From Owenia fusiformis (lineage: Eukaryota; Annelida; Polychaeta; Sabellida; Oweniidae), in contig CAIIXF020000005.1 in assembly GCA_903813345.2 (NCBI GenBank), positions 36,335,375 through 36,399,374 on the forward strand: a DNA stretch of 64,000 bases, read 5' to 3'. Positions 9,601-47,972 of this stretch are shown piece by piece; within the stretch, counting starts at the first letter, position 1, and each line of letters opens with the position of its first letter. The notes under the pieces are model-generated. The model was not told where the DNA came from, ran no database searches, and worked only from the letters and a program-made list of their open reading frames with translations. The position numbers and the translations under genes were made by a program.

Positions 9601-12600
9601 TCTCTGATTTTCCCCATTAGCAAAACATAATTGCTATGCTGCTTATATCATGGTAATGTATACAGAAGATGGTACTCTTTCTTAATACCTTGTTAGTGTG
9701 TAGACTAGGACTGGGTGGTCAAATGACATGTCAACTTGTGCATATCAAATCTGTCTCGTAATGATTAGTGAACTGCTCTTAATTAAAGGCCTGGATTGAC
9801 GATCTTTTGTTGTAATACCAACAGTGTATCTTGCTACCTATTTATCAATGCTTAAATTATGTACTTTCCTTAAATTAACAGATCTGAAAACCTATTTCAA
9901 ATTGTAATTTTATCTCAATAAAACCAAACATAATAGAAACTGTTCATTTTGTCATTTGTAACATATACTGTATAATGAAGGGTGCATAAAATATGATGTA
10001 TTTGTCAGTTTCGCTTGCTGAAAAATTGTTCATTAAATATTGAAGTATACATATGTTTTTGCTGCTTATAATAGTTTTTACACAAAACGTAATACAGGGT
10101 GTTCAATATTGTGAACATGAGGGGAGGCATCAAAAGTTGTATGTCGGATCGGAAACTAAATAAATCTAGTTTTGACTCTGATCCCCCTCCCCCCAAATCT
10201 AAATATCATGAAAGTTGATCGCTGACTTCTGGTTTGAGAATTTGAAAAATTATTGGAAATGCTTATAAATTATAAATTTTGGAAATGCTTATTCAAAGGC
10301 ACATAAAATCAAAATGATATAACTTTTTCACATCCATGCGATACATCGATCCATCTTAAAGCCTATCAGATTTACGGATCACAGTATTTTTATTGAGCTA
10401 CATACAATGTTCTCAAATGATTGTGGAAAGTTAAGAAAGCATACTACAGTGAAATGTGCTCATGAGAACAGGAATTGTCCAAATACAAACTCCACCAAAT
10501 CCTAAATACAGAGTGAGAACAATTGATTATCTTGTTGAAAAGCCATGTTACTGTCGAGGAGGCATAATTTTCTAGCAAGCTATTATTGTTTTTGAGGCAG
10601 GGCAATTAAGTTTAAACTTTTATGTCAGACTGTGACTAACACTGACAACCAAGAAGCAAATGAAGTTTGGACGGCAAAAGATAAATGTAATTTTTGTGAA
10701 TGTGTAAACCAGAATTAGGTCGCATGCATCAATAAAGCCTTATGTAGAAACAAGTGCTCAAAAATATAGGATTCAGACTGCAACACATTCTGTTGTTTGG
10801 AGAGAGATCCTTTCGAGAGAATCAAGAAAGCAGGTATGATATCATTTATAAAGTAAAATCTTACATTATTTAATAAGGGGTCTTGCTTTGTAACTAACTA
10901 TGCATTTTGTATCATTATATCCTACTAAACTATTATATCACTAAAATATTTTATGGTCACATAGGATATCCTACAGCCAATAAATTCCCATAGCATAACC
11001 ATTGATTTTATCAACATTTTTGTACCACCTTGTAAGATTGTTATTTATGATTGCTTTTAACTACAACTTGGGATACATTAAGTAACTGATGCATTGCTAT
11101 TGAATATAACCATATGGAAACAACAATGAGTTTTGCGTATTTATGCATTGCAGTTTGTTTACTGAATTACATATTCGTAATTGAGGTAGATTCGCAAAGT
11201 GACTGTGGGAAGTTAAGAAAGCATTCTACAGCTACATGTGCTCGTAAGAATAAGGATTGCCCAAATGCATACACTTGCGTGAAGAGCAAATTAGATAGCA
11301 GCAAATTTGTATGTTGCCAGAACAAATTTCTACCAAGTACTAAAAAATGTAAGAGAGCAGCGAATGATCCTGTTGATGAGCCACGTCCATGTAGAGGAGG
11401 AGGAAGCATTCGCTGTTCAGAAAATTATTACTGCCATGTAGGCAAAGCAAATATGTTCTCTCTTTGTTGCCTGAATATAACTTGCACTGATCACCAAGGT
11501 TTGAACCGCAAATCAATTGACAAAAAATGGAAGGCTAAAGATAACTGCAATGTTTGTGAATGTGTAGGCCAGGAGCAGATTGTTTGCTCCAATAAGGCCA
11601 AATGTAAAAACAAGTGCTCGAAAAATGGAGAAATTTCATGGAAAGATGCAGGCTGCACTAGATGTGAATGTAAGGGAAAACGATTAGATTGTAAAGAACC
11701 ATGTGACAGGGTGGAAGAAACAGGTGTGATATAATTTTGTGTACTAATTTTTCATTATTGGGTGTGTAGTTAGATTGAAGTATTCATTTTATTAAGCTCT
11801 CTCTATATTTATTGATCTCTCTTTTTATTCTCTCCATTTAACTGAAGATCAATATACAAGATAGTGTATTACATTATAAGTTTAATGTTTTATAGGTGCC
11901 ACATCTCCAATGTCCCAATGCCCTAAAGGATATGGATGGCAAGCAAGTGTTCAAAGATGTGATGGTGTACAAGGAGAGAACAATAAAACTTGTCCTTCGA
12001 TTAAACTACAGTGGTTTGAATGTAAGCCAAAACTTCGTCCAGAACCTGGAGTTCGATTATCTGAAAGTACATCAATTATCACAGGTGGAAAAGAAGTGAA
12101 GCCTGCATATAACTACAGATGGATGGTGCATTTCAAACCTCCCTTATCTTGTGGTTGTGGAGGGTCGATCATTAGTCCAAAGCATGTACTTACAGCAGCT
12201 CACTGTGTAAAACATGGTGATAGACTCAATTTTACTTTTTTAACAGGAAAGCACAGCTTGTCTATTAATGAAACCTTTCAGCAGAGTCGAAAAGCATCGG
12301 ACATAATAATTCATCCAAACTATAGTACACCTAGTGAATTCCCTTATAACAATGATATTGCAATTGTTGAGCTTGACCAACCTTTAGAATTCAACAATAT
12401 CACACAACCTGTAATGCTGCCTAAGGATGGTGTTTTTGATATGGATAAACTAAAGAAGAAGGTGTGTACTGTTATTGGCTGGGGTAGCACAACATCACAA
12501 GAAAGATGTGCCACATCTGATGTTTTGCTAAAAGTCAACCTTAATTTAGTTGATACTTGTTTCCTTAGTGCTATTGACCTTAAGGAAGTGTCTGGTAATA

Positions 12601-15600
12601 TGTTTTGTGCTGGCAATGGTAGTAAGGGTAAAGATTCATGTTTTGGAGATTCTGGAGGTCCTTTAATGTGTCGGGATAAAGGTGAAAAATGGATTCAGCA
12701 TGGTATTGTAAGTTGGGGTCCTGTACGATCTTGTGGGAAAAAGTCAGGAGTGTACACTAAAGTGGCAAACTATGTAAATTGGATTAAGCATGAAACATCT
12801 ACTGATGGTGGTTGGGGGGAGTGGAGTAAGTTCACACCATGTCAAAAGGGAAATGGTAAAAAATCCAGAATAAGGGTTTGCTCCAACCCCCTACCTATAG
12901 GTAATGGAAAATGCAGCAATTATACACATAGCTATGAGGATAAGCCGATGGTACAAATAGAGGAGGTGAACTGTTAGTAGATGATTAGGCCAATTACTTT
13001 AAAAAGGCATATGTTGTTTTGTTGAATTTCTTCAATGTAAAGGTAGAATCTTTTGAACTGGTTATTTTCAGTTTATATATTATAAACATTATAAAAGCTT
13101 CACATCTATTCAAAATGACTTTCATAGATTAGATCAGCAATTGTAATAGCGTATATGTCATACTTGTAATTATGCCAATAAATCATGAATTATTATGGTA
13201 CTGTGGTGTGTGAGTGTTATTTATTTGTTTTGATGAATGATTTCAATAGTTACTATATGCAATTAAAATAGGGAAGAAAGCACAAAATACAAAAGAACTA
13301 ATAAATTATATCAACAGACATAGCTCACTTTAACCAATCTTTATTGTTTCAAATGATTCTAAACCAAATATATTAATCCTAATTAGCCCATCAATCCAAT
13401 AATATTCAGATCAATAATATTAATTTTTAATAAATTTAAGAATTCTTTCAGCTCATATTATATTATTAATTTCTTTCCATTTCACATTGATGACCTTGTT
13501 TCTTAATTCATCAGATTTATAGGTGTCTGAATTGATTTGTGTTTTCCTGATCCTTATGTTGCCACTTGTGCTTTCTCATTAGATTGCCCAACTTGAAAGG
13601 GAGAAGATTGAAGTGCAGGGCAATGTTGATGAAGAACGTAGAAAGGCACGCAAAGCAGCAGAGTTGAAAAGGGTAGCTGAGGTTCGCTACCAGGGTGAAT
13701 CTGAGAGGTGAGTTTACAACTCCAGTGTATTCCAATCTATTTATGGCATTTCATTTTTTAAGTATCATATTTGCTATTCTAATTCGTCCAAGGACCTATC
13801 TGTATTCTGTGATCAATGATTAGAGTTGATTTGTCTTTTTAACAGTGTGAGGTAGATATGCTTATATTAACACACTTTTAGTCACATATTTTCCATAAAT
13901 ACATTCCAAAGGATTGGTATCGATATGGTGAACTGAATTCAACAATGTTTTTCTCTTAAATCAATTATTGAAAACATTCTGTAAAAAAACAGTATTTTAT
14001 GTAATGTTGACTGATTGACAACAATTTAATGCGAAAATTATTTATTTATATTTTATAACACTGTTTTTGTTAACATTTTTTGTTTTTAGTGCAATTGTTT
14101 TTTGTTCCTTTCTACCAATTCTTGAGAATGAAATATCTTTCTGAAGCCTGTTGGAACAAAATAGCATATACAAGATTTTCTTATACCTCTCAGTATTATA
14201 GTTATACAAAGGAAATTTAAAACAAAACCCCCCAAAATAGATAAAAAAATTAAGATAAACCTTTTATTTCATTAACAAGATACTTTTTATCGTACCTAAC
14301 AAAAGGTACGATATTGTAGTCAGCTTGACAGGCGGCGGGCGGGCGGGCGGCGTCTCACTTTTCAGCTTGTCTACAGGTTTCCAGCCAAACCATTTGAGGG
14401 ATTCATCTGAAATTTTCAGGGATGTTTCTACATATCAATGTCAAGAACTGATTAGTTTTTGGGCATTCTGGGTAAATCTTAAGGTGGCCATTTTGGATTT
14501 TCCGTCCTAAATTCTTCACTTTCAAGACTTGTCTACAGGTTTCCAGCCAAACCATTTGAGGGATTCATCTGAAATTTTCGGGGATGTTTCTACATATCAA
14601 CGTCAAGAACTGATTAGTTTTTGGGCATTCTGGGTAAATTTTAAGGTGGCCATTTTGGATTTTCCATCCTAAAATCTTCACTTTCAAGACTTGTCTACAG
14701 GTTTTCAGCCAAACCATTTGAGGGATTCGTCTGAAATTTTCAGGGATGTTCCTACATATCAACGTCAAGAACTGATTAGTTTTTGGGCATGCTGGGTAAA
14801 TTTTAAGGTGGCCATTTTGGATTTTCCGTCCTAAAATCTTTACTTTCAAGACTTGTCTACAGGTTTCCAGCCAAACCTTTTGAGGGATTCATCTGAAATT
14901 TTCAGGGATGTTTCTACATATCAACGTCAAGAACTGATTAGTTTTTGGGCATTCTGAGTAAATTTTAAGGTGGCCATTTTGGATTTTCTGTCCTAAAATC
15001 TTCACTTTCAAGACTTGTCTACAGATTTACAGCCAAACCATTTGAGGGATTCATCTGAAATTTCCAGGGATGTTTCTACATATCAATGTCAAGAACTGAT
15101 TGGTTTTTGGGCATTCTGGGTAAATGTTAAGGTGGCCATTTTGGATTTTCCGTCCTAAAATCTTCACTTTCAAGACTTGTCTACAGGTTTCCAGCCAAAC
15201 CGTTCAAATTTTTACATATGTTACACAGTGATAAGTTCTAGAGCTGATTAACTTTTCTGCGGCCATCTTGCTTTCTTGGTCAACAAGACCACAATGCTGT
15301 GTTTTAGGTACCATATTGTTCACGTCTGTGCCTTGTTTTTAAATCAACCAAACTTTCCTTTGTACAATTACAATATTGAGAGACCTAAACACGTTGTCTT
15401 TATGTCGTTTTGTTCTAATGAGGATCGGATAGATGTTTCATTTCATTCCAAACATATAATACCAAGAACAAAAGAAGTGTCTGATGTGTTTTCTAAAACA
15501 ATATAGAGAAATATATATATATTTTTTCAAATTATATTATTACCAATCAGAAGATGACTATTAAATTGACCATGTGTAAAATTGATGACTGGTTTAACTG

Positions 15601-27269: not shown

Positions 27270-29596
27270 TTAAAGTGCCCGATAAACAATAAAATGCGCA
27301 TGCGTCCAGGTGTTGATAAACTATAAATAGCGAAAATCCAGGGTTTGTCACCACAAGGTAAGCCAGGACGAGTTGAGAGAACAGCTAGTGTTGATATTGA
27401 ATTTACATGTAGCCAGATAAGTTTCCTTATTGAAATTACATATGGTTATTAGCAATACTTTGTAGGTGCTAAATAATAAAATATTTAGAGTATATATGAG
27501 AGAAATTGGTCATTTCGAACCTGTTGAAAAGTTTGTGGCTCTCGGCTACACCGGGGAATTTACTTCCATGAGTACACACATAAATATGGGGTTCCCCAAG
27601 AGGAACGCGACAAGGTGACCTGGCATCAAATGTGCGACTAAATGCTTCTATCGAGAAGATAAAATAACGAATACGACAATAAGTTATTGCATGTGACAAT
27701 TCCGAGCCTTCATCTCACTGAAGTATTTTGAAGTAAAAATAGGATTTTTGTTTTGATACATGGATTCAGATGAACGTAACTTTACTCTGACAACTAATCA
27801 AAACTGAACAAAATTGATTGTACGTAACAGACAATTTATTGTTTTACAATGTTTTGATTGGCTAAACGAATGAAACCAACAAATTATGACATGTAAAATG
27901 ACAATTTTGAAATGTAAAATTTAAAAGTGACAAACACAACCTCCCTATCCACTCTTTGGGAGCCCTAGTAAATTAGTAATATGTACATGCAGCAGTGGTA
28001 GTGTACAGCTTATTATCACACTACGCTTTGTATTCTAAAGCCTGTTGTTTGTAATAACACTGTTCACTCAACGTATGTTTTGTGTGTGGGCAGTCAACGA
28101 TAATCATTGTTTTATCCCGGTTATATGACCTCGGCAATTATAACAGAACCGTACTAAACGAAAAAACGCAAACAAGAGAAAGCTTTCACACACATATAAA
28201 AAATGAACTAGTCTAATCCGCCAGTATAAACTCTGTGCTATACGTAGCCGGGTCAGGCGCACACTTTAAAAGAATTTTGCAACTTAAGTGATGTCATCTT
28301 TTTTTATTCACTTTATTTCTAAGTCAATCTTCTAACTAGGTTGAAAGAGTTCTGTTTTAAATATTACTGTACCATTGTTTTCTATAAGAACTCATATTTT
28401 AAAATGCATTTTCTCTGAACCACTTTCATGCATGGATAAGTTCATTTCTCAATTATTTATCAACCAATTGTCTAATCCTTTGACAAAAGCCATAATGTAT
28501 GAGGATGAATGTCATGCATTGGTGTGACCCGTCGCTTATTATTATCTTTTCAGCTCATCTTTATTTTGATAAACTGAGTGAGAATTTTTGAGTCAGTTAA
28601 AGTGTGCGCCTGACCCGGCTACGTATAGCACAGAGTTTATACTGGCGGATTAGACTAGTTCATTTTTTATATGTGTGTGAAAGCTTTCTCTTGTTTGCGT
28701 TTTTTCGTTTAGTACGGTTCTGTTATAATTGCCGAGGTCATATAACCGGGATAAAACAATGATTATCGTTGACTGCCCACACACAAAACATACGTTGAGT
28801 GAACAGTGTTATTACAAACAACAGGCTTTAGAATACAAAGCGTAGTGTGATAATAAGCTGTACACTACCACTGCTGCATGTACATATTACTAATTTACTA
28901 GGGCTCCCAAAGAGTGGATAGGGAGGTTGTGTTTGTCACTTTTAAATTTTACATTTCAAAATTGTCATTTTACATGTCATAATTTGTTGGTTTCATTCGT
29001 TTAGCCAATCAAAACATTGTAAAACAATAAATTGTCTGTTACGTACAATCAATTTTGTTCAGTTTTGATTAGTTGTCAGAGTAAAGTTACGTTCATCTGA
29101 ATCCATGTATCAAAACAAAAATCCTATTTTTACTTCAAAATACTTCAGTGAGATGAAGGCTCGGAATTGTCACATGCAATAACTTATTGTCGTATTCGTT
29201 ATTTTATCTTCTCGATAGTAGCATTTAGTCGCACATTTGATGCCAGGTCACCTTGTCGCGTTCCTCTTGGGGAACCCCATATTTATGTGTGTACTCATGG
29301 AAGTAAATTCCCCGGTGTAGCCGAGAGCCACAAACTTTTCAACAGGTTCGAAATGACCAATTTCTCTCATATATACTCTAAATATTTTATTATTTAGCAC
29401 CTACAAAGTATTGCTAATAACCATATGTAATTTCAATAAGGAAACTTATCTGGCTACATGTAAATTCAATATCAACACTAGCTGTTCTCTCAACTCGTCC
29501 TGGCTTACCTTGTGGTGACAAACCCTGGATTTTCGCTATTTATAGTTTATCAACACCTGGACGCATGCGCATTTTATTGTTTATCGGGCACTTTAA
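27270..29596. mobile_element. 2.3-kb near-perfect palindrome with two 1000-bp arms bounded by TTAA
   Basis: Left arm 27270-28269 and right arm 28597-29596 are reverse complements; by eye I found one mismatch (T/A near 27650 and its partner). The 327-bp spacer (28270-28596) is unpaired. Each arm begins and ends with TTAA and inverted TTAAAGTG/CACTTTAA termini: outer end TTAAAGTGCCCGATAA, inner end TTAAAGTGTGCGCCTG. Each arm could thus be one copy of a 1-kb element inserted at TTAA, present twice in opposite orientation. A 76-codon frame is present in each arm (27469-27699 minus, 29167-29397 plus; one residue differs) but has no recognised motif. Arm identity this high means recent origin, gene conversion or an assembly artefact. 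Confidence 0.85.
27296..27363 (+). promoter_or_regulatory. Promoter-like segment in the left arm of the palindrome
   Basis: In 70 bases there is an NRF-1-like TGCGCATGCGT (about 27295-27305), a TATA box TATAAATA (27322-27329) and a good splice donor CACAAG/GTAAGC (27358). The spacing resembles a short first exon. The same arrangement occurs on the minus strand in the right arm, so both would read into the palindrome. No coding exon was linked to it. Confidence 0.35.
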
Positions 29597-29689: not shown

Positions 29690-30410
29690 GTAAAAACTAA
29701 TGGAATTCTAATTGGCCATGCTTTCAGCCGTACATTAGAATAATTATATAACATCGCTGACAACAAATATTTGTTAAATGTATTAGGTGATTTTCTTATT
29801 CGATTATTCAGCATTATACATCATTAGAGCCCTAAACACATTTCATTTGTGACTTAAGGGAGTTTAATCAATTCATCCAGGGGAAGAGAAATGAGGTGCT
29901 TAATTTATGCAATTCCATTAAGACATCAGCTATATATATACAAGGAAATCAGGATTCTATGATTATATTCGAATTGTAAAAAGACAATCCGAAAGGTCAT
30001 CGTGAAGAAGAAATGAGATATTGTTTATTGTTTCTTTTATTCCCGAAAATCAATCGGAGGAACAAACATTTAATAATTACAATACAGTTGATTTATACAC
30101 CATAAAAGATATTATGATAATGTAATAAGCGCTGCACAAAAGTGGAGAGGAAATGATTTGGAAAATATGTCAAAAGTTCAAAATGTCTGAGAGTATGATA
30201 ATATGACAGAAAACATTCCAGAACAGAAAGAAAGGAAAGAAGCCAAAGAGAAATGTTGACAATATGAACATTTCTATTTATAAGACACTGCATTCTTGCA
30301 TATTCTTGCACATTCATCAATTCAAAAGTTTCGATGCAAGTGTTGAATAGAAGATTAAAAAAGTGGATAAAAAATTTGAAAGCTGTATATAATCATCAAA
30401 AAATTTGAAA
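29690..30410 (+). repeat. Duplicated 5' flank of the first DEG/ENaC gene
   Basis: GCTTTCAGCCGTACATTAGA (about 29722), ACATTCCAGAACAGAAAGA (about 30213) and ATTCTTGCATATTCTTGCA (about 30290) all recur in order upstream of the second channel gene (about 32990-33614). The duplication therefore includes roughly 700 bp of upstream DNA. Confidence 0.8.
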
Positions 30411-31997
30411 ATGAGTATGTGGAAATCAACCCAGATTGGACATAGAAATGATGATGTTACAGATGCAAATGAAAAAGCAAACACATGTACTCAGAGAGTG
30501 ATTGATGTTCTAAAACAATTTTGTGAAACTACATCCATTCGGGGTTTACCACGAATCATAAAATCAAAATATGCGTTTGGTAAGATCTATTGGACATTGG
30601 CGTTTTTACTCGCCACTGGAGTTATGTGCCTAAATCTCTATGACCATATTGACATATATTTAAAATATACAACAGTCACAAAAACGACTATTGAATCAAA
30701 ATTAGAAATAATAAAGACATTTCCTGACGTCACTGTTTGCAATTTGTTTGGTCTCGCTCATGTGAATAAAACTCCAAGAACAGCGAAGAGGTATAAACCA
30801 AGAATCACGAGGCTTATAACCAAATATGGGTTACCCAAGGACTTCTACAATTCTTTTAAGGCATATGCATCTTTTTTGACTGAAGCTGAACGTTATGAAG
30901 CTGGACACAAATTTCATGATTTTATCGTAGACTGCAAAAAGATAAATATGATTTCAGGTTTTAATGATACATGCCCAGAGAACATGCACGTATTATATAC
31001 TGATTTAACATATTTAAACTGTTATACAATACAGCTCCAAAATGATGCTGCTCTTAAACATATCACAACTGGAATCTCTCTTACGCTTAACTTAAATCAT
31101 TACAACTTGAATGTCAGCCTTTTTGATTTGATCGATGGAATGCCTACTGAACGAGGTATCGCAGTTTACATTCATGAACATAATACCATGCCACCTTATC
31201 AAAACCCATTGAAAATCTCACCCGGGCATGCTGTTAATCTAGAAATCGAAATAGAAGATGCGATAAAACTACCACCCCCATATGGCACCTGTATGGATGG
31301 ATCAGATACAAAGTACACTGTTGCTGGGTCAGAACTGAAGAATTATTCGTATACTATGTTATCTTGTGTTCATGACTGTGTCCAGACTTTAATTCTTGAA
31401 CATTGTAAATGTGTGTCGCAAGAATATCCATTGTTCAGAGGTCAACCAATTTGCCTGAATGCACAAAATAGGGTACCGAGGATTATCAATGAGACTGATT
31501 GTTTATTCGAATTATTGGGGAAGAATTCTGAGTTTCAGTGTCTTTCTGAGTGTAAAGAACCATGCAGAGGAACATCATATAAATATACCACAAGTCAATC
31601 AATCTGGCCTAATGAAGCCTCTCAATTGGATATCTACAAGAAGTACATTCAGAAATCAAAATACCAGCATTTTTACGAAGAATATGAAGATTTACTCACA
31701 CGGGGGAAGTATACATTATTCGAAAAAGGAAAGAAGCTTGAACAGCTAAACACACTAAAAAATAATATGGTGAAGTTGGACATTTCTCTAGCATCAACTT
31801 CAAAGATTATTCGACAAGAAATTCCTCTCATTAATGACATAAGTTTTCTATCATCAATTTCAGGAACTTTTATATTTTACATTGGCTTCACCTTTTTCAG
31901 TCTACTTGAAATGGCAGAATATGCTTGGAAAATCCTTAAAGTATTGTTCAATGTAAAGAAACAAAGATCTGATAAGGTGACATCACTTAAAGAATAA
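30411..31997 (+). CDS. DEG/ENaC-family sodium channel subunit, copy 1
   Basis: Single-exon ORF of 528 residues. I take ATG 30411 (MSMWKSTQIGHRNDDV), because it aligns with the start of the second copy. Layout: cytosolic N-terminus with TTSIRGLPR (40-48, the HG-motif region), TM1 about 57-80 (IYWTLAFLLATGVMCLNLY), a large extracellular loop with PPYGTC, the Cys signature YTMLSCVHDCVQTLILEHCKC-type run, and CLSECKEPC, then TM2 about 476-505 (ISGTFIFYIGFTFFSLLEM) and a short Lys-rich tail. Such subunits form trimeric, Na+-selective, amiloride-sensitive channels opened by protons, peptides or force; the stimulus cannot be told here. Oddities: the filter triplet is GFT (492-494) rather than GxS, and HG is RG. 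It lacks introns and is followed in tandem by a close paralogue. Confidence 0.92.
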   Translation: MSMWKSTQIGHRNDDVTDANEKANTCTQRVIDVLKQFCETTSIRGLPRIIKSKYAFGKIYWTLAFLLATGVMCLNLYDHIDIYLKYTTVTKTTIESKLEIIKTFPDVTVCNLFGLAHVNKTPRTAKRYKPRITRLITKYGLPKDFYNSFKAYASFLTEAERYEAGHKFHDFIVDCKKINMISGFNDTCPENMHVLYTDLTYLNCYTIQLQNDAALKHITTGISLTLNLNHYNLNVSLFDLIDGMPTERGIAVYIHEHNTMPPYQNPLKISPGHAVNLEIEIEDAIKLPPPYGTCMDGSDTKYTVAGSELKNYSYTMLSCVHDCVQTLILEHCKCVSQEYPLFRGQPICLNAQNRVPRIINETDCLFELLGKNSEFQCLSECKEPCRGTSYKYTTSQSIWPNEASQLDIYKKYIQKSKYQHFYEEYEDLLTRGKYTLFEKGKKLEQLNTLKNNMVKLDISLASTSKIIRQEIPLINDISFLSSISGTFIFYIGFTFFSLLEMAEYAWKILKVLFNVKKQRSDKVTSLKE

Positions 31998-33614
31998 TGT
32001 TTATCTCAAAGTAGCCTATTGTAAACAATGATCTAGGAATCAAGTGTAAGTGCGATTTGATGAGCTGTTTTTTTTAAAACACATGTAACTTACACTGTAG
32101 TACTTATTGTCCTTTTTAGTGATAGCTAGAGAGGAAACTCCCAAGGTATTAAAATATTAAGCAATTCACTTGCACCGCGATCATACAAAAATACAGCCTA
32201 AATTTCAATTGTGAAAAGGATGAGTGTCCTTATGACCCTGCATTAGCCCCCAAAATATTTATAATAAATTGTACAGGATATGAAAGAAGGGACTGTGTTT
32301 AATGATCAAATCCAAAAATTAGGTGATTCTGAACTTTATATTTCAAAATATAGGTCATTCTATTAACGAGGAATGTTGTGATCGGGAAAACACAATCAAG
32401 TACCCTTGACCTTTTTGCATTTTGTGTCGTACCACATATTCGCCTATCAACTTTCCAACGACGAAGCCCAGAATCCAATGCTTTATGTGCTAATTTTGAG
32501 ATTGTCCTGACCTAGGATGATTTTTTCCTCATTCTAGTGCTGACCTGTCGAATTATTTTCGTCGAGATCAATTTATCTGAAACTTGTATAAAAGCGGGGA
32601 AATTCATATGTTTTCGGATTGGTTGATAAGTTTGTTTATCAGTGCGGTTACGTGACCAAAGGAACTCTGTAAATTGCAGTTATGGAAATTCACAAGGAGG
32701 ATTGGCTCCCAGAATGCAACATCGATATACTTACCATACATGGCGTTATGGCCGTGATCTTATTATAACATAGTCATGTCGTGATTACAAAATTCAAAAT
32801 CAAAACGTCCGCCATTTTTTCACTTCAAAATTATTATTATATTACATTTTACTTGAAAGGCGTAATCGATGCACTGCCATGGACCTCAATCCTCTGGAGA
32901 GATACCCGGGGAGAGATATAGGTCAATGGCAATGAGTACGACTACCCCCTCTGATTATTTAGTACATAATAGAATACTAATGGAGTCTGCTTTCAGCCGT
33001 ACATTAGAATGATTATATAAAACTATTGTCAATAAATATCTGCTATATGTATTAGGTAATTTTCTGTTTCAAGTGTGTGGCCTAATGTACCATTTAAACC
33101 TATTTCAATTACATTGCCATTTTAAATTGAGTTAAATCAATGTATCCATGGAGATAGGAAGCAATCGGGATAATTGATGCAATTCCATTGAGACATCAGG
33201 CATACATGGAAACCAGGATCTATATTTATATTCAAATTGTTAAAAGGGAATCTGGTATTTGTAAAGGAAAAGTTCGAGCAAGTAACATGATAAAATTTGG
33301 AGAGGAAACATTTTAAAAAATATGTTAAAAGTGAAGTTTGAGAAAGAATATTATCGTGTGACATTCGCATTTGTATAAACATTGTGATATAGCAATCGGC
33401 CATGGGAAACACATCCAGTGATTCATTCCAAAACACAAAACATTCCAGAACAGAAAGAGAAGAAAGATAAGCCAACGGAAAATACTGACAGTATTTTCAT
33501 ATGTAGCTATAACACAATGGATTCTTGCATATTCTTACAGATTCGTCAATTTTATATTTTTGATGCAATTATTGAATAAAAAGTTTTGAAACTTGTGCAT
33601 ATAAAATCATCAAA
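31998..33614 (+). other. Spacer between the two channel genes
   Basis: Holds the 3' flank of copy 1 (with AATAAA-like sequence near 32266) and, from about 32990, the duplicated 5' flank of copy 2. No other gene is seen; the minus-strand frame at 33137-33475 lies in the duplicated flank and has no family signature. Confidence 0.6.
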
Positions 33615-35201
33615 ATGATTCTGCGGAAATCATCCCAAATTAGACATGAAAATGATGATGTTACAGATGCAAATGAAAAAGCAAACACATGTACTCAGAG
33701 AGTGATTGATGTTCTAAAACAATTTTGTGAAACAACATCCATTCGAGGTTTACCACGAATCGTAAAATCAAAATACATGTTTGGTAAGATCTATTGGACA
33801 TTGGCGTTTTTACTCGCCACTGGAGCTATGTGCCATACTCTTTATGATCATATTGACGTGTATTTTTCATATTCAACAGTCACAAAAACGACTATTGTAT
33901 CAGAGTTAGAAATAATAAAGACATTTCCAGATGTCACTGTTTGCAATCTATTTGGTTTCGCTCATATGAATGAAACTCCAAAAACAGCTTTGGAGTATAG
34001 ATCAATAGTTTTTGACCTTGTAACCAAATATAGGTTGCCCGTGGACTTCTTCAATTATTTTGAGGCATATTTATCTTTTATGACTGAAGCTGAACGTTAT
34101 GAAGCTGGACACAAAATTCATGATTTTATTGTAGACTGCAAAAAGATAAATATGATATCAGGTTTTAATGATACATGCCCAGAGAACATGTTTGTATTAT
34201 TTACTGATTTAACATATTTAAATTGTTATACAATACAGCTCCAAAATGATGCCGCTCTTAGATATATCACATCTGGAATCTCTCTTACGATTAACCTGAA
34301 TCATTACAACTTGAATGTCAGCCTTTTAGATTTGATCGATGGAATGCCTACTGAACGTGGTATCGCAGTTTACATTCATGAACATAATACCATGCCACCT
34401 TATCATACCCCATTGAAAATCTCACCTGGGCATGCTGTTGAAATACAAATCGAAACAGAAGATGTGATCAAGCTACCACCCCCGTATGGCACCTGTATGG
34501 ATGGATCAGATACGAAGTACACTGTTGTGGGGTCAGATTCGAAGAATTATTCGTATACTATGATATCTTGTGTTTATGACTGTGTCCAGACTTTAATTCT
34601 TGAACGGTGTAAATGTGTGTCGCGTGAATATCCATTGTTCAGAGGTCAACCAATTTGCCTGAATGGACGAAATAATGTACCGAGGATTATCAACGAGACT
34701 GATTGTTTATTTGAATTATTAGAGGAGAATATTGAGTTTCAGTGTCTTTCTGAGTGTAAAGAACCATGCAGAGGAACATCATATAAATATACCGCAAGTC
34801 AATCAATCTGGCCTAACGAAGGCTCTCAACTGGATATCTACAAGAAATACATTCAGAAATCAAAGTACCAGCATTTTTATGAAGAATATGAAGAGTTACT
34901 CACATTGGGGAAGTATACATTATTCGAAAAGGGAAAGAAACTTGAACAGCTAAACACACTTCGAAATAATATGGTGAAGTTGGACATTTCTCTAACATCA
35001 AATTCAAAGATTGTTCGAAAAGAAATTCCTCTCATCAATGACATCAGTTTATTTACTTCAATTTCAGGAACTTTTATATTTTACATTGGCTTTACCTTTT
35101 TTAGTCTCCTTGAAATGGTAGAATATACTTGGAAAATCCTTAAAGTAATTTTCAACAGTAAGAAACAAAGATCTGATAGGGAGATATCACTTAAAGGATA
35201 A
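33615..35201 (+). CDS. DEG/ENaC-family sodium channel subunit, copy 2
   Basis: Single-exon ORF of 528 residues from ATG 33615 (MILRKSSQIRHENDDV) to a stop at 35199-35201. It is a close tandem paralogue of the gene at 30411, the same length and alignable end to end without gaps as far as I can see. Differences concentrate in the first extracellular part (KTALEYRSIVFDLVTKYRLP versus the equivalent of copy 1), while the Cys-rich domain, both membrane segments and the tail are nearly the same. It retains TTSIRGLPR near residue 40 and the GFT filter at 492-494. Both copies are open, so both are probably functional. They could form homo- or heterotrimers. Confidence 0.92.
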   Translation: MILRKSSQIRHENDDVTDANEKANTCTQRVIDVLKQFCETTSIRGLPRIVKSKYMFGKIYWTLAFLLATGAMCHTLYDHIDVYFSYSTVTKTTIVSELEIIKTFPDVTVCNLFGFAHMNETPKTALEYRSIVFDLVTKYRLPVDFFNYFEAYLSFMTEAERYEAGHKIHDFIVDCKKINMISGFNDTCPENMFVLFTDLTYLNCYTIQLQNDAALRYITSGISLTINLNHYNLNVSLLDLIDGMPTERGIAVYIHEHNTMPPYHTPLKISPGHAVEIQIETEDVIKLPPPYGTCMDGSDTKYTVVGSDSKNYSYTMISCVYDCVQTLILERCKCVSREYPLFRGQPICLNGRNNVPRIINETDCLFELLEENIEFQCLSECKEPCRGTSYKYTASQSIWPNEGSQLDIYKKYIQKSKYQHFYEEYEELLTLGKYTLFEKGKKLEQLNTLRNNMVKLDISLTSNSKIVRKEIPLINDISLFTSISGTFIFYIGFTFFSLLEMVEYTWKILKVIFNSKKQRSDREISLKG

Positions 35202-41769: not shown

Positions 41770-43269
41770 TTAATTTTGTTGATTAGCTTGACTGAAAGCA
41801 CAACCTCCTGTGAAACCTCCTGTGCCTGGTTCAGTTTTAACAACAGTTTGTGGAGCTCCATAAAAGCCGTTCTGACCTTGGAAGTTGTGACCAGGATGTG
41901 ACCATTGGCTAGGGGGTGCTGGGAAGCCATTAGGTGCCTGTGTGGTGCCTACTGGGAAATATGGACTCCTTTGTTGATGTGCGGATGGATCATAATATGG
42001 GGGTTGCTGATGTCCACCCCCGGGTAAGTTCTGTGGGAAATTATGGTTGTACGGATTAAACTGTGCATTATGGGAAGATGGTGGATGTTGGAAATGTCCT
42101 TGGGACATCGTTGTCGGCATATTAGATGGGTAATTGAAGCTACTGGAGTTCATATTAGAGAGATTAGTATAACTTGGGGTTTGATTGTTGGAAAGTTGGT
42201 CCATTGATGGGCTAGTTGTCTGAGGATTATGTGGAATGTTTGCTTGTGAGGTTGGCATATTGTTCTGTTGTCGAGACATATTGCCTTGTTGTTGTTGCTG
42301 GGATACACTACCTTGTTGCTGGGTTATATTGCCTTGCTGTTGCGTGATATTGCCTTGCTGTTGCCCCATACTGTCCTGTGGCTGTTTCGAGTGCTGGGCT
42401 ATATTATTTTGTGCACCATTAACATCCTGTTGGTGTGGACTCCCCTGAGACCCATTACCCTGGGACATATTACCCTGGGTCATATTTCCTTGGGACATAT
42501 TTTCCTGGGCAGGATTGCCCTGTTGAGGACCACTGTTCTGTGCTATATTGCCTTGAGGCATATGACCTGGTCCCCCTTGTTGGGGCATTCTGGGCTGACC
42601 TTGGTGGGACATTTGGGGTTGACCTTGTGACATTTGGGGTTGACCTTGCGACATTTGAGGTTGAGCCCCTTGTGGCATTTGGGGTTGACCTTGTGACATT
42701 TGAGGTTGAGCCCCTTGTGGCATCTGGGGTTGACCTTGTGACATTTGGGGTTGAGCCCCTTGTGGTATTTGGGGTTGACCTTGTGACATTTGGGGTTGAC
42801 TCCCTTGTGACATATGGGGTCGAAGGGGCATGTGGGGCTGTGGTATACCAATGGGAAGAGACATGCCTCCCTGGGGCTGGGGTGGCATCATTCCCCCTGG
42901 CATGCCCCCTTGAGGGGTCATAGATCCACTGAACTGATGTCCCATTTGGCCTGGCATCATTCCATATTCATAATCCGCAATCTCCTGTTTGATACGGACA
43001 ATTTGTGACTCTCCCGTTACAATATCAGCCAATAATGGCGGATCAGCTGTCTCAATTTTAGGTTCCTTCTCCTTTTTCACATCTGGTTTTTCTCGCTTTA
43101 CTATTTTCAATTCTAAATCTGGGAAACACACTTCCGCTTCATCCATATTAGGTAAATCACCACGGAGATGATCACGTAGTTTTTTGAGTGCATGATAAAA
43201 AGGCAGTTTGTCAATGACACGTGGGAGTTGGGCACATCTGGCACTTGATGAAGGCATCGCAAAAACAAC
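41770..43269 (-). CDS. TDG: TDG last coding exon with Gln-rich C-terminal tail
   Basis: Acceptor TTTCAG/GTTGTT at 43270. It encodes VVFAMPSSSARCAQLPRVID, completing the glycosylase fold, then about 440 residues of low-complexity tail. The tail has tandem QPQMSQGQPQMPQGA-type units (about 42600-42800) and QQGNITQ units. Sumoylation-type [VI]KxE motifs are visible: IVKRE, VKKE, IKQE and, near the end, VVKTEPG. Human TDG has one such site C-terminal to its catalytic domain, whose modification promotes release from the abasic product. That extra sites do the same here is inference. Confidence 0.92.
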   Translation of the reverse strand, partial: VVFAMPSSSARCAQLPRVIDKLPFYHALKKLRDHLRGDLPNMDEAEVCFPDLELKIVKREKPDVKKEKEPKIETADPPLLADIVTGESQIVRIKQEIADYEYGMMPGQMGHQFSGSMTPQGGMPGGMMPPQPQGGMSLPIGIPQPHMPLRPHMSQGSQPQMSQGQPQIPQGAQPQMSQGQPQMPQGAQPQMSQGQPQMPQGAQPQMSQGQPQMSQGQPQMSHQGQPRMPQQGGPGHMPQGNIAQNSGPQQGNPAQENMSQGNMTQGNMSQGNGSQGSPHQQDVNGAQNNIAQHSKQPQDSMGQQQGNITQQQGNITQQQGSVSQQQQQGNMSRQQNNMPTSQANIPHNPQTTSPSMDQLSNNQTPSYTNLSNMNSSSFNYPSNMPTTMSQGHFQHPPSSHNAQFNPYNHNFPQNLPGGGHQQPPYYDPSAHQQRSPYFPVGTTQAPNGFPAPPSQWSHPGHNFQGQNGFYGAPQTVVKTEPGTGGFTGGCAFSQANQQN

Positions 43270-46200
43270 CTGAAACAAACAAGGACGTTTGTCTTAAGTA
43301 TGTCACTCAAATGAATGGTTCATAATTTACTCAAATCCATCCCTAACAGTGTTTATCTTTGAGTTCAGTTTATCAGGATTTTTTAACAATTTGGAGGAAA
43401 ATACTCTGAAAACTATTGATATGTGTTTGTGTTTTTAAAGAAATTAAAATCTAACTTACAGTATCTGTTCCTGGGAATGGCTCTGGTTGCTTCCCAATAT
43501 GGAAATTTTTGTGACCCACAAATATTTCATAAATTCCTGGAATAAAAGGATGACAAATGAAAATCATGTAAATAAATGAAACTACGCTCATATTTGCAAA
43601 CATAGAATAATAAATTGACAGACATCAATCATGAGATTATAAATCAAAGAATTGCATGAATATCGCAAATCATGAATAAACAAGATGTGAATTGCATCTA
43701 AAGTAGCAAAAATACTTTTGACAAAGATATGAAGATATAGTGACCTCTTTTACTAAACAATAGAAGCTATTTAGATGTCTTATAAACTGCAGGTTGCAAT
43801 ATTTCCAAATAAAATTCTCGGAGTTTCTTCAAATGGTTTGAATTAAACAAATGCAAGACATCATATCTAATATGTGTCGTGCAATACTGACTCGATCGAT
43901 CACGTTCAATAAATATATCAAACTATTATATGTTCATTAATTAGAATGAAATTTTATAGCAACAACCTTATTTATGACTGCAATCACAAAAGTAAATACA
44001 ATAAATTGTACCACATTTATCATATTACTATAAATCTTACCTTTCCCATTAAATACAGCTATTTTCGGTTTATATTTCTGGATTTTTTCTAAAAGAATTT
44101 CTCCTCCTTCTTTGATTTCTTTCCTGAAATAAAAATCATATCAAAATTTTACTCGACATGTTAAAATTAAACGACATGTGAATACAATAAATGGGATGAG
44201 GTAAGTAGCATAAACAGAGTAGTAATCTAATATGACAATATTGTAAGTTAATATGAATTATTTTTCTTGAGGGTATCATACATTGATGATTTAAGTCACC
44301 TAAAATCTCTAACTTGATAATTTATGTGATAAGTTTTTCATGAATCCCAAAAATAACATGTGGGCGATAGCAAAATCTCACCCATGTGAGGTAATAAAGG
44401 TGAATTACTTTTGCTGGATTCCCAACTTGATAATTGATACATAATGTACCTAGAATAACAGCATCAAATAGAGAAAATTCTCTGTTTACAATACATTGGA
44501 GGCCATATAAATAAAGCTAATCTTCCCATCAATGAAGTTGAACAAATGCAGGAAATAAACTCTGCAAATGAAATATATGAAATAGAACAAGGATGTTTTA
44601 CTTTACATAGTCATAAATGTCCCTCGGTCATTGCTTGATGATAAAGAACATTTAATATATGATTTCCTACGTAGTATCACATCCTGTTATATTTAAATGT
44701 TAGTCAAGCAAAATTTCAATTTCAAAGTTAGCTGAAAGTAAACTCAATAAACCCTGACTTTTTCCCACACAAAATATATGGGCGATTTTCAGTGTAATAC
44801 AATGCTATCTGTGAAAAATTTAGAATATCAATTGTACACATTGCTACCTACAACTATGACATCATACATCAGGCTTATATATCCTAGCTTCTTTTGGGCA
44901 GTTAAAGGTGGCAGAGCTTATAAGAAAAGTCTACCGACCAAACAAGTTATTTCATCTTCAAGATCTGAAAATTCTCTGGTTTAAATTTTTAGAAAAAATA
45001 CATTACAAAGAACCATATATTTTAAAATATGAAGATTTTGAAATGATTTCACTGTAAATCTGTCACTCTAAAATGGCATAAAAAATCCCCACCCACCTTG
45101 TTAAATCCCCGCTCCCCCGTGTTGTTCGTTCAACAATATTTGTGAACCCTATCCCGTATTCAAGCAATCTCTCGTCATCATAACAGTTCATGGGCTCGGG
45201 GATAAATCCTGCCTGGTACAGACACTTCCCTGTCAACATAACACAGGCGGATTAATACATAAAATAATGCAAGAAAATAGTACCTAGTCAAATCTGCGCT
45301 GCCTCTAGTGGTTCTGGCACATATACTTGTGAAGCCAATACCAAATTGGGGCATACGGACGTCGTCATAACAATTCAATGGCTCGGAGATTAGTCCAGAT
45401 TGGAACATACATTGCCCTATATTTTAGAAATAAGAAAAGTATATTCCAAGGCTGCCTCAACTGAGCCAATTATTGATAGAATAAAAAGAAGTTTATAAAT
45501 ATTTCATCATTATCATTTCTTGTACAAATTATTGGAAAAATATTTCATTTTTACATAAAAATACAGTCAGGGTTGCAGGGACCTGATTGGCCCTGCTTCG
45601 TCTCCCTCCTCCTTGACCCAGAGTAAGAGAAAATGAGGTTGAGGGGGGGGGGGGTGCAAATACAAAAGGCTTGATGAAAGATTAAAACTAAATATCTATA
45701 GAATAAGATTTACTTACAGAAATGGTTACCAGGTCCTGCATAATGGTGACCAATATAGGCAGCCATTAGACCAGGGTTGATTCCCACCTGAAATATTTAC
45801 ATAATCATATACTCATACAGTAAAATCTGTAAATCTGAACACTCAATTTTAACACTTCTTTAGTTCCATTTTTTAAAGAATGCAAAACCAATCACTTTTG
45901 GCCAATCCCAGTGGCATTCATATTTGACAAGTTATATTATGTGTACATGTACAAGTACATAGTTCAAAAGTCTTCAACACATTTCTACTTCCTTCAAAAT
46001 CTTAACTGGGGCTATTCCAAGAATAAATAGAATGTGTATCTACAATACATTTTCATTAAGTAAATAATCAAACATGTGCTGTCCAATGCAAATATACATT
46101 AGTTATTACATTTCCATATCCTTTAAGTAACTCTAATTGTTTAATATACAGAAGAATAGAACAATCAAATAAATCAAACATTTTACTTTTACTCGTATAT

Positions 46201-47972
46201 TTGTTTTTATTATATTTGTTATTTCTGTTTTCATTTTATCAAAGCGTACTTACAATTACTATATCTAGGTTAGGGGCAAATATATCTGGTAATCTACGTT
46301 GCAAAACTTCCTCTTCAGGCATACCGTTGAAACGATCATGCTTTTTACGCACTTTCATACAATCTGTCATTTTTTCTTGTTTCACTTTTTTCTTGCGTCC
46401 CCGTGGTGATTTCACATTCTCTGGCATTACTTGTGGTGGGCCAAACCTAAAATGAATCATTTTTAAAATTTAAAAAAAAATATTTGACCCTCAAAAGTAT
46501 TTGTTTTGTCTTCTTTGTGTTAAGAAAGAATTTAACTTCCTTCAAACTATTCCACAAAATGAATTATAAAAAATGTTAACACAAATAATAGCTTAATATC
46601 TAGTCATGTTTCAAGACACTCTGCTCCCCTCCCACTCTCTCCCTGTGACAGAAAAGAAATGAGAAAGTAGGGAGGGGGTTGTATAAGGGTCTTGGCGCAA
46701 GACTCGAACTTCTTTAAGAACAAAACACATACATTTATGGTAAATGCAGCTTTTGTCCATTTTATTTCCCGTGTTTCCTCTCTATTCCACTTATTTGAAA
46801 ACATCAACAACAAAAGATCCCCTTGACAAGAACATTACATATTGCGATATAGGTTATTAACCTTTATTAACTTGTTATTTCAATTATTAAGACCCCCTGA
46901 CACAAACTCAATCATTTTCTGTACCTACAGATAAAATCATCACGACCATGTGTAAATCTTCAAAATTCAGTTGAAACAGTGGCAAAAACATGTGCTTAGA
47001 AAATCCCAAAGGTACATGAAAGTGACATGTTACAATGTAAAATTTGTGAGACATTGTCTTGAATAAAAATTGACAGGGCCGTGTTTGAAACCCAGGCACT
47101 AACCTGCCTTTGATTTATGAAATATTCCAGAGTGCAGACATTATTGTTCTGTTTTTCTTATTTATCATTTATTTATATTGTCATTTATTAACCTATTAAG
47201 CCAGAGTAATAAAATCATTTTTTGCATAAATGGAGAAGAACATTTCTTGTATTCTTGTGAGTCAATAATCTAATAATAGGGATATTTTGCTATAAAATAA
47301 GTAAATCTTATTATCCGTTTTTAATTTGTGCTACTTATATGGATTTCTAGTCATTTTCAGAATATTTGGAATATGTAGGCACAGTGAAAAAAAAACGTCT
47401 AGATTATTTATATTATAACATTGTACTATCATACCGAACATATTTCATTTCAAAGCAACTTAAGTTAAAATTTCATCCATCAATAATTCACATTACATGA
47501 ATACCTCTATTACCTAAATTCCTTCTTCATATGGTAGACTGGAGACCAATATAAACAACTTAAGTGATTTATGACCAAGAAATGTGTCAAAAATAGATAA
47601 GAAATAAGTCATTTATAACCAAGGTTTTATATGGGAAACTAACAAACTTTTGAAATCATGGGGCAAAGTGGAAGTGAAGAAATTGTAAACAAATTGTATA
47701 AACGTAAAGAGATTTGTAAACACAAAGTGAGCCGCAAAATCACTCAATGATACAAATTTTTCTCGAGCAAAAATGAGTTCCCTCATCTCTTCCTTTTAAG
47801 GACTTACCCTTGATCAATAGTTTCCTGTTTTATTTTTTTCTTCCTTATTTTTCCCGCCTGACTTTCCTGTAGTTCTGTAGGTACGGGAGGACACATAGCA
47901 CCCACAGGGGGTGGTAACATGGGTATCGTATTCCCCTCCATGAATGGTGTCGCAAAACTGTAGTCAAAATCA
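41770..47972 (-). CDS. TDG: Thymine-DNA glycosylase (5' end not found; two alternative exon 4 versions)
   Basis: Exons on the minus strand: 47972-47808, 46446-46254, 45788-45718, then either 45416-45284 (B) or 45229-45097 (A), 44123-44041, 43536-43460, 43269-41770 (stop). The enzyme excises T and U from G mispairs and, in animals, 5-formyl- and 5-carboxylcytosine made by TET, in the nucleus. Seen: a basic, AT-hook-like PRGRKKKVKQE, then RFNGMPEEEVLQRRLPDI, the catalytic block VGINPGLMAAYIGHHYAGPG (its Asn is the human Asn140 position), GIGFTN, IAVFNGKG, and FAMPSSSARCAQLPRV, whose Arg is the human Arg275 wedge. With exon A or B the coding length is one base too long for a single frame; the extra T is in exon 45788-45718. 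The C-terminus is long and Gln/Met/Pro-rich, unlike vertebrates. Splicing starts upstream of 47972. Confidence 0.93.
43460..43536 (-). CDS. TDG: TDG exon 6
   Basis: Acceptor TTATTCCAG before 43536 and donor GTAAGT at 43459-43454. It encodes IYEIFVGHKNFHIGKQPEPF and PGTDT, corresponding to the human segment that begins IYEIFSKEVFG. Phase 2 start, phase 0 end. Confidence 0.9.
44041..44123 (-). CDS. TDG: TDG exon 5
   Basis: Acceptor TTATTTCAG before 44123 and donor GTAAGA after 44041. It encodes KEIKEGGEILLEKIQKYKPK and IAVFNGK, a strand-helix segment conserved in the family. Confidence 0.92.
45097..45229 (-). CDS. TDG: TDG exon 4, version A (canonical)
   Basis: 133 nt: acceptor TGTTGACAG before 45229 and donor GTGGGT after 45097. 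Read after a T it gives W, then KCLYQAGFIPEPMNCYDDER and LLEYGIGFTNIVERTTRGSG, DLT and part of an Arg codon. GIGFTN.VERTT is the conserved family form, including the residue equivalent to human Asn191. It starts in phase 1 and ends in phase 2, exactly like version B, from which it is separated by 54 nt. Confidence 0.92.
45284..45416 (-). CDS. TDG: TDG exon 4, version B (diverged alternative)
   Basis: 133 nt: acceptor AAAATATAG before 45416 with a pyrimidine tract TTTTCTTATTTCT, and donor GTACTA after 45284 (weaker than that of A). It encodes W, QCMFQSGLISEPLNCYDDVR, MPQFGIGFTSICARTTRGSA, DLT. 27 of 43 full codons give the same residue as version A, with no gaps or stops. The differences include Ser for the Asn of GIGFTN, and Cys-Ala for Val-Glu just after it. 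An intact frame and splice sites argue against a dead copy. Confidence 0.88.
45718..45788 (-). CDS. TDG: TDG exon 3, catalytic Asn exon (one extra base)
   Basis: Acceptor TTTCAG before 45788 and donor GTAAGT after 45718. It encodes VGINPGLMAAYIGHHYAGPG NHF. The catalytic Asn (human Asn140) and the HHY triplet are present. The exon is 71 nt, ending TTTTCT. Both versions of exon 4 need it to be 70 nt, ending TTTCT, to give HFW.C as in other TDG proteins. No other GT donor is available at that spot. Confidence 0.92.
45789..46253 (-). other. TDG intron 2
   Basis: Bounded by GTAAGT (46253-46248) and TTTCAG. AT-rich with no other feature seen. The neighbouring intron between exons 3 and 4B holds a 12-base G run at 45643-45654. 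Confidence 0.6.
46254..46446 (-). CDS. TDG: TDG exon 2
   Basis: Acceptor CATTTTAG before 46446 and donor GTAAGT after 46254. One base completes a Gly codon, then 64 codons: a basic region (SPRGRKKKVKQEK), KVRKKHDRFNGM and RRLPDIFAPNLDIVI, the start of the glycosylase domain. Confidence 0.92.
46447..47807 (-). other. TDG intron 1 of the visible gene, no gene seen
   Basis: 1.36 kb of AT-rich intron. Purine/pyrimidine-rich patches occur at about 46615-46680. No exon-like segment with matching phases was noticed. Confidence 0.5.
47808..47972 (-). CDS. TDG: TDG N-terminal exon
   Basis: Acceptor ATTTTCAG before 47972 and donor GTAAGT after 47808. It reads DFDYSFATPFMEGNTIPMLP, then a Pro-rich stretch and KIRKKKIKQETIDQG, similar in style to the poorly conserved basic N-terminus of TDG. 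The frame is open to the acceptor with one leading base, so the true start is probably in an exon further upstream. If not, the Met in FMEGN is the first candidate. Confidence 0.75.

Follow-up and report, generated by a model that had tools for sequence, protein, structure and literature searches.

Two tandem 133-nucleotide exons, putatively mutually exclusive, in the thymine DNA glycosylase gene of the annelid Owenia fusiformis

The window (the whole stretch of 64,000 nucleotides of Owenia fusiformis DNA analysed in this work) contained, on its minus strand, a gene encoding thymine DNA glycosylase (TDG), which extended from at least position 47972 down to a stop codon at 41770. The exons, all on the minus strand, were E1 (47808-47972), encoding the N-terminal region and of uncertain status as first exon, placed by its AG/GT borders, an open frame in phase with E2 and the whole-genome protein search; E2 (46254-46446), with the start of the catalytic domain, E3 (45718-45787), with the GINPG loop that carries the position of human Asn140, and E5 (44041-44123), the three placed by their match to human TDG and their borders; exons 4A (45284-45416) and 4B (45097-45229), both of 133 nt, both corresponding to human TDG positions 160-204 and both placed by borders, homology and alignment; E6 (43460-43536), placed by whole-genome protein search and borders; and E7 (41770-43269), with the MPSSSAR loop followed by a long Gln/Pro/Met-rich C-terminal tail running to the stop, placed by its open frame, protein search and borders. 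No upstream start codon or true first exon was found for the gene. All its introns were bordered by GT and AG, and measured 1361, 466, 301 (E3 to 4A), 54 (4A to 4B), 973 (4B to E5), 504 and 190 nt. The tail in E7 included a Gln/Pro/Met-rich tandem repeat (QPQMSQG/QPQMPQGA; window 42543-42967, minus strand).

The identification of the gene as TDG, made earlier from the letters alone, was borne out by matches to PDB chains and to family profiles. The catalytic domain of the form containing 4B (isoform B) matched human TDG (PDB 5ff8) over query residues 12-166 with an E value of 5.6e-63, and the form containing 4A (isoform A), searched as a shorter query, matched TDG chains of the PDB at 3e-44. 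Both forms exceeded the cut-off of the Pfam UDG family (PF03167; 64.9 for A and 69.7 for B). The TIGR00584 scores (229.3 bits for A and 226.3 for B, from part-length queries) were below the whole-protein cut-off of 402.6 because the query had 165 residues, against the 328 positions of the model. The bacterial MUG model gave 88.3 for A vs. 104.8 for B; the lower scores of A with the Pfam UDG and MUG models also fit an enzyme that is merely weakened.

A single TDG locus was detected: when the joined protein was searched against the 498 Mb genome, all 8 matches lay inside C5:36378533-36383345. In a genome-wide search with the peptide of 4B, the matches were 4B itself (E 2.8e-25), 4A (E 2.3e-14) and a weak stretch on another contig (E 0.445), which was discarded as a further TDG, being repeat-rich when read by eye and having no other TDG-like sequence. 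The PF03167 profile search of the whole genome produced zero matches, missing TDG itself; this null result carries no meaning because the TDG exons are short, and the protein searches were relied on instead.

The sequence-only reading had described 4A and 4B as two tandem 133-nt exons with AG and GT borders, phase 1 at the start and phase 2 at the end, and open frames, and this proved exact to the base; the splice-junction coordinates it listed also agreed with the gene model reconstructed here. The two are thus homologous internal exons that lie side by side and agree in length and phase, as expected of a mutually exclusive pair. Because three does not divide 133, the frame needs exactly one of them. 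With 4A alone or 4B alone, the frame was open from E1 to the normal stop (739 codons). The earlier claim that including both or neither would break the frame was confirmed in the reconstructed gene, with premature stops in both cases: within 4B when both exons were in (244 nt ahead of the last exon junction), and at the E3/E5 join when neither was (161 nt ahead of it). RNA with both exons, or with both skipped, would be expected to meet these stops and be removed by nonsense-mediated decay.

The position of the two stops, well upstream of the last junction, is also what would be seen if the locus worked as a dose switch, in which transcripts with both exons or with neither decay and regulated choice sets the level of TDG protein. 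We consider this improbable as the explanation of the pair, as such a switch has no need for a second full-length, in-phase exon constrained as protein, and as removal of the 54-nt intron, needed to join both exons, is unlikely. A dose switch could exist alongside the choice between exons. It is very probable that 4A and 4B are a real pair, used one at a time.

Exons 4A and 4B were identical at 90 of 133 nucleotides. Their peptides shared 27 of 43 residues, as previously noted, or 28 of 44 when the Trp whose codon begins in exon 3 was included. The 43 nucleotide differences fell 12, 8 and 23 times on codon positions 1, 2 and 3, respectively, with pS at 0.86 (saturated) and dN at 0.21. Differences at 43 of 133 bases and saturated synonymous sites, together with a locus found only once in the genome, leave next to no probability that the second copy is an artefact of assembly or haplotype, and no points supporting such an artefact were found. 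When each exon was evolved neutrally to the same nucleotide divergence (40,000 simulations, 20,000 per exon), the frame stayed open in 23% of those started from 4A and 18% of those started from 4B, and the best of the open ones had 26 identities: none of the 40,000 was open with the observed 28 or more. Most of the divergence between 4A and 4B thus arose under protein constraint.

Both exons were similarly close to human TDG (23 of 44 residues identical for 4A and 25 of 44 for 4B). With human TDG as the outgroup, only 4A departed at 7 sites, only 4B at 5, and all three sequences differed at 4; neither exon was faster (Tajima chi2 0.33), and the constraint thus applies to each copy. Residues like those of human TDG were kept in 4A and lost in 4B at positions 164, 166, 168, 173 and 182, and kept in 4B and lost in 4A at 161, 163, 181, 185, 191, 193 and 194. 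Because of this similar closeness to human TDG, the saturated synonymous sites and the low dN, neither exon looks like a decaying copy.

These values bear on the proposal that only 4B is used and that 4A is a normally skipped relic of an old exon duplication. Two features of 4A favour it: the 4A donor (TAG/GTACTA, exon/intron) agreed with the consensus in 5 of 9 places, the fewest among the seven donors scored (8 of 9 for the 4B donor, AAG/GTGGGT), and Asn191 and Glu194 were lost in 4A. So old a relic, however, would be expected to be without frame and borders, and 4A had an open frame where most neutral simulations had closed, kept 28 of 44 residues and, with synonymous sites saturated, had not outpaced 4B in its departures from human TDG (7 vs. 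5 sites); a relic is therefore a poor explanation, of small probability. The weakness of the 4A donor suggests that 4B would be included by default and that 4A would require activation.

The intron between 4A and 4B (45230-45283) may itself explain why the exons exclude each other. Introns of about 54 nt get spliced in flies and worms. In O. fusiformis the 54 nt separating 4A from 4B were less than half the length of the shortest other intron measured in the genome, in a sample of 67 introns from two gene families only. These were the gaps between neighbouring matches, among the matches listed, of myosin heads (31 introns) and kinesin motors (36 introns), an intron being counted only if the model positions adjoined (4 or fewer missing) and the gap was 6 kb or less. 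Eighty of 92 myosin matches were used, the 12 of a myosin exon array being dropped, and 99 of 144 kinesin matches, with 17 of 18 tandem copies of one exon on C2 and 28 further matches left out. The lowest coarse estimates (118, 126 and 133 nt, with an error of up to tens of bases) became 133, 126 and 133 nt on exact reading, so that the three smallest of the 67 measured 126, 133 and 133 nt. Two merged kinesin matches (L009 and L010) were read by eye for very short introns, and none was identifiable in them.

In the best-placed candidate branch point of the 4A-4B intron, a TTAAT identified by motif match only, the A followed the 4A donor by 32 nt and preceded the 4B acceptor by 22 nt; for other branch-like motifs the distance to this donor was 19, 24, 45 or 51 nt. 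In the accessible text of one source, the threshold proposed for steric exclusion is a spacing of about 50 nt from the 5' splice site to the branch point (PMC7969005). At some 32 nt, the 4A donor and the 4B branch point would be too near to each other for U1 and U2 snRNPs to bind simultaneously, and this crowding would keep 4A from being joined to 4B. With an intron far below the smallest sampled in the genome, joining of 4A to 4B is probably blocked sterically, and we regard this block, which would be of the kind known from tropomyosin and OGDH, as the likely main reason for the exclusion.

One exon could instead be excluded by regulator proteins, or by RNA secondary structures that compete with each other, and not by the short intron. 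Such mechanisms are reported to operate in several insect clusters (PMC6071210, PMC8042237, as far as their available text goes), and seven weak inverted repeats were present in the region. The best of these was matched by 23 of 60 dinucleotide shuffles (a weak comparison, of one region in one species), and nothing in five other inverted repeats between E3 and E5 spoke in favour of a switch based on RNA structure. Exclusion of this second kind is thus rather unlikely, and the steric block remains the preferred explanation.

The mutual exclusivity proposed in the sequence-only reading, together with its exon homology and frame logic, was supported from several sides, and that interpretation is very probably right: the reconstructed gene, the neutral simulations, the dN and pS counts, the comparison with human TDG and the intron lengths elsewhere in the genome. 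We give a probability of roughly 0.8 to the main reading, in which the sole TDG gene found has in 4A and 4B a mutually exclusive pair of ancient origin, maintained by selection. The two resulting isoforms may differ in base preference. Pairs of mutually exclusive exons are a known kind and are mostly old, according to the part of the literature consulted (PMC9741552).

The difference between the isoforms was confined to human positions 160-204 (numbering counted from Asn140 in GINPG, which places exon 4 at residues 160-204). The catalytic Asn140 itself is encoded by the constitutive exon E3 and is common to both isoforms. The pair had been described as lying just after the catalytic exon; this is correct as to place but understates the matter, as exon 4 also holds the catalytic-pocket position of human Asn191. 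At this position isoform B had Asn and isoform A had Ser, so that a residue conserved in TDG was absent from A. Exon 4A was marked by three neighbouring changes on the side of the pocket, with Ser in place of Asn191, Cys in place of Val193 and Ala in place of Glu194. Judged by its sequence, isoform A belongs to TDG in its descent and fold region, with one defining residue altered.

The available portion of one study calls Asn191 “strictly conserved” in TDG and reports that excision of 5-carboxylcytosine depends on it; in that study the N191A change in human TDG caused losses of 3800-fold for caC, 394-fold for G.oxoA, 6-fold for G.U and 10-fold for G.T, and Asn191 was dispensable for 5-formylcytosine (PMC9800633). 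In a second source, also available in part, Asn191 touches the edge of the base (PMC3488261). Exon 4B would therefore be expected to give an ordinary TDG with Asn191. On the strength of the N191A data from human TDG, which concern Ala where 4A carries Ser, the isoform with Ser191 would be predicted to lose most of its activity on 5-carboxylcytosine and 8-oxoadenine, and to keep that on 5-formylcytosine and part of that on G.T and G.U. A deficiency of isoform A on 5-carboxylcytosine and 8-oxoadenine is the best-supported prediction, and a difference in substrate preference between the isoforms seems somewhat the likelier outcome. Residue N204 of human UNG is taken here to be the equivalent of TDG 191. 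When N204 was varied by saturation, Asp alone gave clear cytosine activity (PMC11289083, available text), so the Ser in 4A need not yield a new activity. E. coli MUG has a Lys (K68, in UDG motif 3) aligned with TDG N191 (PMC9800633), and this residue sets specificity, K68N altering both activity and specificity (PMC10776899; both sources consulted in part). The MUG change was made in the laboratory, whereas in O. fusiformis a single TDG gene supplies Asn and Ser from separate exons.

Other known systems share single features with the pair. Human TDG resembles the O. fusiformis protein in the catalytic domain and in positions 160-204 of exon 4, but differs from isoform A, with its Ser at the Asn191 position. 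For human TDG, the accessible text of a review on alternative splicing among base excision repair enzymes mentions two mRNA isoforms, of which the truncated one is likely without function, and for mouse, start variants; the words “mutually exclusive” were absent from that text (PMC6651865). The open-licence literature yielded no case of mutually exclusive exons in a gene for TDG or another DNA glycosylase, as far as it could be consulted, many journals being outside it. Exons 4a and 4b of OGDH are likewise tandem duplicated, mutually exclusive exons of an enzyme, but of an unrelated gene; the intron that separates them in birds and mammals has distant branch points and a length of 118-131 nt, unlike the 54 nt of TDG. 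The duplicated exon 10 of oyster AOX, another invertebrate enzyme, is similar in size (about 41 codons) and in the likeness of its copies (63.5-65.9% DNA similarity; PMC5589949, in the part available), but its copies are terminal exons reached by alternative acceptors (the second copy or both) and not an exclusive internal pair. The closest functional parallel is COQ-2 of helminths and C. elegans, in which the exclusive exons 6a and 6e swap conserved residues near the substrate: the choice of exon is reported to switch two otherwise strictly conserved residues and to change the choice of substrate (PMC7434440, accessible text). COQ-2 is a different enzyme, and the use and effect of its exons were proven by RNA and genetics, whereas the TDG pair is known from sequence. 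The splicing principle and the enzyme are both known; what is new is to find them together, and with a defining residue changed. A pattern scan of prokaryotic contigs for relatives gave 133 pattern matches, none of them confirmed.

A TET/JBP domain match above the family cut-off, spread over three exons, was present in the genome, together with three DNA-methylase domain matches (5mC is not proven by these, as the family includes DNMT2-type enzymes). The CpG observed/expected ratio was 0.45 for the window, 0.38 for the TDG gene and 0.34 for the TDG exons. The TET match, the methylase matches and these ratios are what would be expected if the genome contained 5-methylcytosine and oxidised it. 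In such a genome the choice between 4A and 4B might conceivably switch the specificity of the enzyme during active DNA demethylation, although we hold this to be doubtful. If it were so, the 4B form would clear 5-formyl- and 5-carboxylcytosine (as well as 8-oxoadenine), the 4A form would clear 5-formylcytosine and mismatches while 5-carboxylcytosine stayed, and the splicing of one gene would determine which of the TET products remain in the genome of a given tissue or stage. Telling the role of 5-formylcytosine from that of 5-carboxylcytosine is difficult because one enzyme removes both; the pair would then be a natural separation-of-function TDG whose usage could be traced through two splice junctions. 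Base excision repair would also join the few cases, such as COQ-2, in which exon choice alters a conserved pocket residue. The pair would offer, in addition, a clean test for exclusion by intron length.

Other repeated exons were observed in the same genome. One exon of a muscle myosin heavy chain gene (TYSGLFCV...NPY) was present in 13 full-length tandem copies and 1 partial one (G000:C9:37985500-37995000), and this array is probably a very large mutually exclusive cluster. The muscle myosin piece had as its nearest PDB chains 1dfk, 1dfl, 1b7t and 1kk7, presumably all of scallop, which together with the exon clusters hints at a lophotrochozoan, perhaps a mollusc. A search for COX1 gave no match. 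A second duplicated exon of the same myosin gene, LEDQI(V/I)QANPVLEA(Y/F)GNAKTVRNNNSSRF, occurred in two copies (G000:C9:37979742-37979846 and 37980724-37980829). Exon clusters of this type have been described in myosin genes of molluscs and annelids, none of them as large in the accessible part of that survey (PMC3912159). A kinesin-motor exon (model positions 290-327) occurred in 18 tandem copies with nearly equal scores and a spacing of 159 bp (G000:C2:23266359-23269174).

Three further features were seen in the window apart from TDG. Two tandem single-exon genes for amiloride-sensitive sodium channels (DEG/ENaC) lay on the plus strand at 30393-31997 and 33576-35201. Two nearly identical frames of 81 codons formed an inverted pair at 27469-27714 (minus strand) and 29152-29397 (plus strand), and are perhaps the ends of a mobile element. 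On the plus strand at 11090-12977, a frame with a lustrin-type cysteine-rich match was followed by a frame with a trypsin domain.
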